This document shows positions 16,231-19,768 of a stretch of DNA of 64,000 nt, piece by piece. Location: NCBI GenBank assembly GCA_024280885.1, contig JAJRPF010000047.1, positions 1-64,000 on the forward strand, given 5' to 3'. The notes below the pieces were generated by a model, which ran no database searches, was not told the origin of the DNA, and worked only from the letters and a program-made list of their open reading frames with translations. The position numbers and the translations under genes were made by a program. Source of the stretch: Planctomycetota bacterium. Lineage in GTDB: Bacteria; Planctomycetota; JAJSAM01; JAJVHW01. Position 1 is the first letter of the stretch; the number at the start of each line of letters is the position of its first letter.

Positions 16231-17250
16231 GTGCTGACGCAGAGCGCCCCGACGCAGCCCGAGCCACGCGTCTCGATTCTGATTCCGGCGTACAACGCGG
16301 AGCCGTGGATCGGCGACGCCATCGAGTCCGCGCTTGCGCAGACGTATGGCGAGACCGAGATCATCGTCCTGGACGATGGCTCGACGGACGGCACTCTCGG
16401 GGTCGTCCGCGGCTACGACGTGCGCGTCGAGACGCAGCCGAATGCCGGGCCGAACGCGGCTCGCAATCGCCTGCTCGCGCTGTGTACTGGCACGTGGGTG
16501 CGCTATCTGGACGCGGATGATCGGCTTCTTCCCGCTGCCACTGCATCGCAATTTGCATCGCTTCGACCGGGCCTCGATGTCGTGGTCGCGCCGATCCTCG
16601 TCGCTGGCTCCACGCAGATGCACACGCCCGACCTCGACGTCTGGAGCGCTCTCTTCGAGGCGGGGCTCGGCAGCACGAGTTCTATCCTGTGGCGGCGCGA
16701 CGCTCTCGTGCGCGTCGGAGGATGGAACGAAGGCGTTGCGCGCGGGCAGGAGTACGAATTGCTCTTTCGCCTCTTGCAGTCGGGTGCGGCGCTCGGGCGC
16801 GGAGACCGACCGACCGCGAGTGTGCGGACGACGAACACGGCGAGCGTCTCCCGAAGCGACCCGGCGGCGTCGATCGCACGGCACGCGATGCTGGTCTGCG
16901 ATGGTCTTGTGTATCTCGAACGCTCGGAAGCGCTCACGCCCGAGCACCGCGCGACGGCCGCCTCCGTTCTCTTTCGACTCGCCCGCCGCCAGCGTCGGTA
17001 CTCGCTCGTGGCTGCCCGCGAACTCTTCGCCGCGGCACTCGAATGGCACCCAGAACTCGGCGTCGAACTGCGGCGCAGCGGGCCTGTCTACGGCCGTCTG
17101 CTGGCGACGTTCGGGTTCGACGCGGCGGAGATGTACGACGGCCTGGCGCGGCCACTCCGACCCGTCGTCGCCGCTCTCCGTCGCTGGAATGTGCCGACGT
17201 CACGGCCACGCGTCACAGCTGCCGTAGCCGCTCCCGCCGACGCGACCTGA
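16231..17250 (+). CDS. Family 2 glycosyltransferase
   Basis: 'VSILIPAYNAEPWIGDAIESALAQTYGETEIIVLDDGSTDGT' and 'YLDADDRLLP' (DxD). Confidence 0.92.
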   Translation: MLTQSAPTQPEPRVSILIPAYNAEPWIGDAIESALAQTYGETEIIVLDDGSTDGTLGVVRGYDVRVETQPNAGPNAARNRLLALCTGTWVRYLDADDRLLPAATASQFASLRPGLDVVVAPILVAGSTQMHTPDLDVWSALFEAGLGSTSSILWRRDALVRVGGWNEGVARGQEYELLFRLLQSGAALGRGDRPTASVRTTNTASVSRSDPAASIARHAMLVCDGLVYLERSEALTPEHRATAASVLFRLARRQRRYSLVAARELFAAALEWHPELGVELRRSGPVYGRLLATFGFDAAEMYDGLARPLRPVVAALRRWNVPTSRPRVTAAVAAPADAT

Positions 17251-17334: not shown

Positions 17335-17579
17335 CTCAGAGGGCGTTCCCATGAACCATGGGGCGCCAGTCACACGATGTGCGCTCGGACGGCCTCGGCG
17401 GCTTGTGCCCCAGGCTCGCGGCGCACATCGCGCGCCCGCAAGCGGCCTGCCCGTGGAACCTGTCAGCTGCGTTGCCGACGCTCGATGACTCCGTCAGGAG
17501 TCGCGTTCGCAACCGCGCCTTGCTGACAGGCTCCACGAGCAAGCTGGCGCTCCCACTGTCTATGGGAACACCCTCTCAG
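17335..17579. repeat. ~245-bp multi-armed palindromic element with ~35-bp imperfect terminal inverted repeats
   Basis: TIRs 17335-17369 / 17544-17579 (about 29 of 35 positions match); internal hairpins 17375-17384/17421-17430 (perfect 10 bp) and 17449-17467/17522-17540 (17 of 19), the latter enclosing 17471-17481/17503-17513 and GACTCC-GTCA-GGAGTC at 17487-17502. Confidence 0.7.
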
Positions 17580-19411
17580 TACTTCAGGATCTTCTTGCTC
17601 CGTGCGCCGCGTACGAAGACCGCGCGCACGTCGCCGCCCTGTTCGTAGATCAGGAGGAGCGGGATCGGGCCCTCCGGGACGTTGCCCAGATCCACGTCGC
17701 CGCCGCGCACCGAGATGCGCTCCTTGGCGTAGTTGAGCGAGATCGCTTGCACCCCGTCTTCGACGGCTCCCGTCAGGACGAAGTTCTTGCCCTTGAGCGA
17801 GAGAGCCTCCGCTGGGACGTTCGCGGAAAAGATGTCGCCGAATGCGACGCGGACGTCGGGGGCGGTGTTCGGTGCGGACCCATCGCCCGCGATACCGGCG
17901 ACGAACTTGAACGAATGCCGCCCGACTCCCGGGAGCTTCGCCTTGGCCTTGCGGATGCTGATCGCCGGGGCGATGAGTGTTCCCGGCGCCTTCCCGAACT
18001 TGAACGCGCCGTTCGCGAGGATCACGGTCGCCTGCGCGTCCACGCCGCCACCGACGTACGAGAGCGTGAATTCTCCGTTGAGATCGGCGCCCTCGCCGAG
18101 GTCGCCACTGAACGTCAGCTTGTACTTCGCCTTCGAGGTCCCGAGCTTCGACGGGGTGACCTGGAAGACGAGCCCGTCGCCCTGGAACACGAAACTCTTG
18201 CCGCCCTTGACGGGAGTGAGCCCGGGCACGTCGAATTGTCGCGGACCGACCAGGATCGTCGCAGGCGCCGTCAGGTCCACGAGGTCCGGCCCTGTGTCGA
18301 ATGTGCCTTTGGACTTGACGCCCGGCTTCCCGCGCTTCGCTGGCGACAGTGTCACGGAGATCGTCTTCGGGAGTAGGAACGATCGGATCGTGCCTGCCGG
18401 CGCGGCGTTCACGTCCTCGAGCAAGGCGATCCCGCGCGGGCCGTTACCGACATTCACCGGTCCCTCGCGCTCGATATCCGCAGGGAGGTCTACGATGCGC
18501 AGCGTGTCGTCGTCCACGTCTGCGATCAGTATGCATGTCTCGTCGTCCGTGACGGCCAGAGCGTACGGCGTCCGACTCTCCGGCAGGTTGATCGAACGCA
18601 CGAACGTCTCGGTGGCGAGGTCGTAGATGTCGACGCGTCTGGAGAGCGCCGTTGCATAGGCCATCGAGCCAACGATGTCGACATCGCGTTGGTCGCCGAG
18701 CGACGGGAAGTCGAACGTCGAGTTGTCAGCGGTTCGAAGGACCGTCGGGCCGCCTTCGCCCACGATCAGGACCTTGGTGCCATCGGCCGAGACCTTCGCA
18801 TCGCGCGGTGCGTTCACGACCGGGATGGCGCTCGCGACAATCGTGTTGGTGTTCGTGTCGATCACATCCAGCGTGTCCGCTTTGCGGTTCGCGACGTACA
18901 CGCGCAATCCGTCCGGAGACACCGCGACACCTTCGGGAGACGCGTTCGACGACGAGAGAGGCACCGACGCGATCTCCGCCATCGTCGACGTATCGATCAC
19001 GTTCAGCGTGCTGGACGACTTGCAGACGACATACACGCGACTTCCGTCCGGGGAGACCGCGAGGTTGTACGGCTCCGAACCGGTGAGCGCGACCGTCGTG
19101 AGCACCGAGTCGGAACTGGTCGAGATCACCGTCACGTCGGCACTGAAACGGTTCGGAACAAAGAGCAGCGTGCCCGCCGGGTTGAGATCACAACCACGAG
19201 GCTCTCTACCCGTTGGGATCGTGCGCGTTTCGGTGAGCGTCGCGAGATCAATGACCGAGACGGTGCGCGAGTCGGTGTTACTCACGTAGACTTTCCCGCG
19301 CCGCGGCGGCGCTCCGCCTTCTCCGGTCCGCGCGGCTTGCTCTCCCACAGCGAGCAATGCGGCTCCGAACGTGAGAACTACCAGTGCGTTCTTTAGTCGA
19401 GCATGCGACAT
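17576..19411 (-). CDS. YVTN/YncE-family beta-propeller repeat protein, secreted
   Basis: Repeats 'GKVYVSNTDSRTVSVIDLATLTETRTIPTGREPRG', 'SPDGSRVYVVCKSSSTLNVIDTSTM'; signal peptide after ATG at 19411. Confidence 0.88.
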   Translation of the reverse strand: MSHARLKNALVVLTFGAALLAVGEQAARTGEGGAPPRRGKVYVSNTDSRTVSVIDLATLTETRTIPTGREPRGCDLNPAGTLLFVPNRFSADVTVISTSSDSVLTTVALTGSEPYNLAVSPDGSRVYVVCKSSSTLNVIDTSTMAEIASVPLSSSNASPEGVAVSPDGLRVYVANRKADTLDVIDTNTNTIVASAIPVVNAPRDAKVSADGTKVLIVGEGGPTVLRTADNSTFDFPSLGDQRDVDIVGSMAYATALSRRVDIYDLATETFVRSINLPESRTPYALAVTDDETCILIADVDDDTLRIVDLPADIEREGPVNVGNGPRGIALLEDVNAAPAGTIRSFLLPKTISVTLSPAKRGKPGVKSKGTFDTGPDLVDLTAPATILVGPRQFDVPGLTPVKGGKSFVFQGDGLVFQVTPSKLGTSKAKYKLTFSGDLGEGADLNGEFTLSYVGGGVDAQATVILANGAFKFGKAPGTLIAPAISIRKAKAKLPGVGRHSFKFVAGIAGDGSAPNTAPDVRVAFGDIFSANVPAEALSLKGKNFVLTGAVEDGVQAISLNYAKERISVRGGDVDLGNVPEGPIPLLLIYEQGGDVRAVFVRGARSKKILKY

Positions 19412-19768
19412 GACGTCTCCCCTCATCGGTGACAACATGGAAATGGGGCAAGCCCACATCGGCACTCTACCAGCTGGTCGTCCGCGATGCGACCGTGAGG
19501 GAGCCCGCCATCGGCGCGAGGCGCGGTGGTAGGTGGTCTCCGCGGCAAAAAGACCGCAGTTCTGAGCCTCCGCAGATCCCCATTCACGATCCACTGCAAC
19601 GGTCGGCTGTCGGCGCGGAGCAGCGGCGCGAAGGCACTCCACATGACGACTGGCCTCGGTCCCGCGGAGATTCTACAACGCGCAGATGGCGTGCGTCCGT
19701 TGGCGCGTCTTCTCGTCGGCGATGATCATCGGGTCGAGAACGTCATCCCATCCGCGCAGTTCCGGTTG

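Follow-up and report, generated by a model that had tools for sequence, protein, structure and literature searches.

Bacterial MITEs are usually regarded as decayed ISs. They are dispersed, non-coding elements of 70-300 bp with long terminal inverted repeats (TIRs) and a stable stem-loop, and are moved by transposases that recognise these TIRs (PMC3733652, PMC10969869). A different class of small element, the REPs, is defined by its short, GTAG- or CGTC-tagged hairpin (PMC3733652); these are single hairpins of 20-40 bp linked to RAYT transposases. The element described here, found in a window of 64,000 nucleotides from a planctomycete genome, resembles RUP, Correia/NEMIS, ERIC, Nezha, QMITE and MITEAba12 in size range, long TIRs, lack of coding capacity, dispersal and stem-loop structure, but differs from them in that its interior holds a core whose helices covary and whose internal loops are conserved, and which is common to elements of other IS families across the phylum. 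With the GTAG and CGTC palindromic repeats of the REP type it shares an extragenic palindromic character and termini that may supply stop codons (PMC3733652), whereas its long TIRs, TNA flanks and cloverleaf structure set it apart from them.

Anatomy and copies of the element

A palindrome is present at 17335-17579, with the sequence, coordinates and arms previously described, and comparison of its copies refined the limits of the element to 237 bp (Table 1). The element is short and non-coding, with covarying TIRs of about 30 bp, and is arranged as a four-way structure of an outer stem, a long arm, a small hairpin and a second arm. On either strand its predicted fold is stronger than that of every one of 200 dinucleotide shuffles (z of -7.4 on the + strand and -11.4 on the - strand), and the element is multi-copy; the palindrome with nested arms that the earlier note had pointed out from the window alone is hence real. 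Covariance folding, which that note had suggested, supported the cloverleaf: an alignment of 13 full copies from three genomes yielded 87 pairs, with 95.1% of the cells paired and double changes in 25 pairs, a degree of covariation that was reached by none of 500 shuffles, while slid controls were paired in 33-47% of cells as against 95%. In the stems of the 30 full copies, read on the - strand, there are 242 G-U cells versus 43 A-C cells, and in 29 of these copies the fold of the - strand is better than that of the complementary strand. This G-U excess, together with the better folding of the - strand, suggests that one strand matters as a single strand.

Table 1. Features of the element and its flanking genes in the window
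Feature	Position	Strand	Remarks
Non-autonomous (MITE-like) element	17339-17575	- (better-folding strand)	Copies in the same genome and in relatives end at these bases
Left TNA (TCA)	17336-17338	none	Identical to the right TNA; probable 3-bp target-site duplication
Right TNA (TCA on +)	17576-17578	-	TGA stop codon of the beta-propeller gene
Right TIR, 5' side of outer stem, GAGGGTGTTCCCAT...	17545-17576	-	
Left TIR, 3' side of outer stem	17338-17368	-	
Long nested arm of cloverleaf	17446-17543	-	Main helix of 22 pairs, 6 with compensatory changes
Shared core module, CAAGGCG ... GACTCC-TGAC-GGAGTC ... GCAACGC	17452-17537	-	82.5 bits with covariance model R1; occurs between other TIRs elsewhere
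Second arm (CGATGTGCGC/GCGCACATCG)	17371-17434	-	95% of cells paired (helix 7)
Small hairpin between the arms	~17436-17445	-	Helix 6 of the alignment-based structure
Beta-propeller gene (YNCE/Lactonase, YVTN type)	17576-19642	-	Its stop codon marks the probable site of insertion
Glycosyltransferase family 2 gene	16231-17250	+	Convergent, on the other flank

A search of the genome and its relatives recovered about 9 copies in the same genome (a 6.3 Mb draft), most of them with 94-98% identity and one with 73%, several lying at contig ends, as is usual for repeats. The genome of a sister species in the same genus (Planctomycetota MAG Dive96_bin10.89, referred to below as G001) contains at least 40 copies or parts of the element, and further copies occur in two more genera of the family. 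The sequences flanking the copies are unrelated, except where copies adjoin a second repeat. The element is accordingly neither single-copy nor lacking in covariation, the outcome that the earlier note had set against its own reading. Some derivatives are reduced: very short forms of about 50-75 bp (L076, L080, L081, L083 and L084) have its TIRs but, of the interior, no more than the first bases, several of them adjoining stop codons, and six loci of G001 (L085, L086, L087, L095, L100 and L103) have lost one end, the kept end adjoining the stop codon (TGA or TAA) of a gene.

Probable insertion at a stop codon and the likeness to ISAzo13

The right TIR had been described as covering the stop codon of the YVTN gene, and this can now be made more precise, as the triplet that bounds the element on that side is itself the stop codon (Table 1). 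The ortholog of this beta-propeller gene in G001 (77% identical) has the same ...KKILKY-TAC-TGA end, followed by other DNA and no element. The occurrence of the same stop codon in an ortholog free of the element points strongly to insertion at this codon, and provides the empty site that the earlier note had suggested looking for, in the form of a same-genus gene with the same C-terminus and stop. Based on the anatomy of the locus and this ortholog, we propose that the element entered the TNA of the beta-propeller stop codon and that a 3-bp duplication of the stop triplet would have regenerated the codon, so that the beta-propeller protein would have been left unchanged. In G001, fragments of 40-46 aa matching the C-terminus of the beta-propeller protein are also seen at G001:C296:19336-19452 and G001:C358:5398-5535, the first of which adjoins an end of the element (L094).

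Across copies, the boundaries take the form TNA|GARGGTGT ... ACACCYTC|TNA, mostly in a CTNAG context, and the six bases after GARGGTGT differ among subfamilies in a concerted manner at both ends (TTCCCAT, GGACAA, TGACAA, CGCGAA). The target-site duplication that the earlier note had suggested looking for was found in part: a TNA stands on both sides, but the left and right TNA are identical in only 7 of the 12 complete copies, including that of the window. As they differ in the other 5, the 3-bp duplication, though likely, is not a clean one. Among 29 full copies, 14 abut the stop codon of a called gene against an expected 25% (p 0.006, binomial), in a test made after the pattern had been seen and with a background that contains a few copies. 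This background was derived from 0.79 Mb of the two genomes, in which 27 of 110 and 30 of 112 non-coding CTNAG sites are stop codons, using one simple gene caller for both the copies and the background. Several of the copies that are not at stops are those beside the second repeat. We read the excess as a mild preference or a survival bias, since a TGA or TAA that is duplicated as the TNA target leaves the gene with its stop; the placement shows how a TNA-duplicating element can enter gene ends harmlessly. Taken together, the earlier suggestion of a MITE is supported by 1) multiple copies; 2) TIRs; 3) TNA flanks; 4) a same-genus ortholog without the element; 5) unrelated flanks and 6) covariation.

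The ends and target resemble those of the ISAzo13-family (PF07592) ISs of the phylum, which have TNA duplications, often in a CTNAG context (seen in several), and G[GA]G-type (GRG) ends. The window element differs from them in having no transposase, no member of the family with its exact ends was found, and the interiors of the ISs that were examined lack the core. An ISAzo13 IS in G001 (L121) has GGGCCCGCGCAGGAATAA ends with TTA on both sides, and identical TIRs bound a second MITE, of 166 bp, which also bears the core. Searches by TIR pattern in the same genome, its relatives and 392 Planctomycetota genomes recovered no autonomous IS with GAGGGTGTTCCCA ends; of the 392 genomes, just the two sister genomes contain TNAGAGGGTGTTCCCA, and the window's own assembly gave no PF07592 match. 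As no such autonomous IS was found, the transposase family is inferred. By analogy of ends and target the window element appears to be an ISAzo13-type MITE, probably moved in trans by a transposase of this type. Two other affinities were tried and rejected: searches with PF01609 and PF13586 for an IS5-type parent gave no IS with the ends of the window element, and an integron attC site is at odds with the ends, which lack GTTRRRY/RYYYAAC, and with the element not being arrayed.

A structured core shared by several transposon systems

The tip of the long arm is formed by a structured core of about 88 nt, CAAGGCG...GCAACGC, with conserved internal loops. The same core is shared by the 166-bp ISAzo13-type MITE, by elements whose ends are of the GCCYGGACTATTCATGA type and by an element of another genome (G002) with GAGGCTGTGAAGGAAC ends. 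In all, it is surrounded by about a dozen unrelated TIR types, some of which, being assigned in single copies, may be chance. The ends of an ISAzo13 (PF07592) IS are among the dozen, as are those of a PF01609 IS (L112 versus L249). Searches with the covariance model R1, built from 19 cores and with a short calibration, detected the core in 51 of 294 Planctomycetota genomes, representing 47 of 209 genera, and such genomes often contain many almost identical copies. Among 52 copies, in an alignment (A3) fitted to the model, the covariation score is 0.657, versus 0.170 for shuffled and at most 0.111 for slid controls. Conservation extends to the internal-loop bases CAAG, GACGA, CGAG and GCAA, in part by construction, since the seeds of the model were chosen by the pattern CAAGGC...GCAACGC. 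In 49 of the 52 copies the fold of the core strand is better than that of the opposite strand, a bias that comes partly from the purine-rich conserved loops.

Like the structured RNA families of Rfam, the core combines covarying helices with conserved unpaired bases, but none of these families matches it: Rfam 15 returned no match for the element or the core, even at a relaxed E-value. The searched plasmids, phages and viral contigs yielded nothing, and in open-access papers we found no description of the core or of such a planctomycete MITE. Within 40 examined loci with transposase genes the core was not found inside any, its sole occurrence there being in one neighbouring MITE. The structured ncRNA proposed in the earlier note is supported to some degree for the internal core, a candidate RNA that covaries and is strand-biased. 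Unexpectedly, MITEs with the ends of different IS families have this one core in common; in many genera it has kept its loop sequences and shows compensatory changes, and the ISs examined do not contain it.

Origin and possible role of the element and its core

We consider it probable that the window element is a non-autonomous MITE with ISAzo13-like ends, located at a stop codon, and that its shared core is a conserved folded unit that gains new transposon ends. The interior of the element folds as a cloverleaf with the core at the tip of the long arm, and the core, as a strand-specific folded module, may act as RNA or single-stranded DNA, conceivably via a factor that binds its loops. Its recurrence between the ends of many transposons suggests that it is a selfish or functional unit, and its distribution is consistent with repeated acquisition of new transposon ends. 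It may give its host elements an advantage, for which the recruitment of a host or transposition factor, or the provision of a harmless and stable 3' mRNA end, are candidates. We read the core as a structured module, possibly RNA, riding on several transposon systems, whose function we infer. More tentatively, it might be a selfish or symbiotic RNA or single-stranded-DNA motif that captures unrelated transposon ends throughout the phylum, a "satellite of satellites" with a trans factor on its internal loops; this is possible, though we hold it with considerable doubt. If functional, the core would point to a structured motif of RNA or DNA, not described before, that aids the spread of small elements, with natural end-swaps ready as a test set.

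The plainest rival is that these are ordinary MITEs, the core-bearing families being deletion derivatives of ISs, among which a core with no function of its own spread as a passenger by recombination of neighbouring or nested MITEs. MITEs normally arise from ISs (PMC10969869), and copies of the window element directly adjoin the second MITE family in L004, L006 and L043, a nesting that would permit exchange. We nevertheless regard this as rather unlikely, given that the core lies inside none of the 40 transposase-gene loci and that its helices still covary and its internal loops are kept in 47 genera; neither decay nor chance exchange would preserve these features, which speaks against a mere passenger. 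A further alternative views the element as a bidirectional transcription terminator or a stabiliser of mRNA 3' ends between convergent genes, selected at gene ends. Such a role would agree with its position between convergent genes, its strong hairpin and strand-biased fold, and the excess of full copies at stop codons. It appears improbable, as neither strand of the window has a T-run (U-tract) following the element, and the element is found in many unrelated sites and is missing at the orthologous gene of the sister species. An mRNA 3'-end device would moreover be expected to show an orientation bias toward the abutting gene, whereas the stop-abutting end is the right one in 6 cases and the left one in 9, about equal numbers. 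The REP-type origin raised in the earlier note, that is, a REP/REPIN-like element moved by a RAYT (IS200/IS605-type) transposase, is by far the least credible; the element is indeed palindromic and extragenic with a strand-specific fold, and the termini of GTAG REPs also often give stop codons (PMC3733652), but its 237 bp, the 30-bp covarying TIRs and the TNA on both sides in a CTNAG context are unlike a short tagged hairpin, and the ends of the copies read TNA|GARGG and lack the GTAG or CGTC tag that marks REPs (PMC3733652). The MITE with a conserved, end-gaining core is consequently the reading that we favour.

The second MITE family (166 bp, ends GGGYYCGCGCARGAATAA, TNA) was located at L004:1330-1500, L043:1250-1420 and L257:19700-19900, and the IS with these ends at L121:1353-2424. 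This ISAzo13 IS of G001 sits at the centre of a palindrome with about 40 bp per arm (L121:1312-1375 and 2403-2466), and its transposase gene appears frameshifted.
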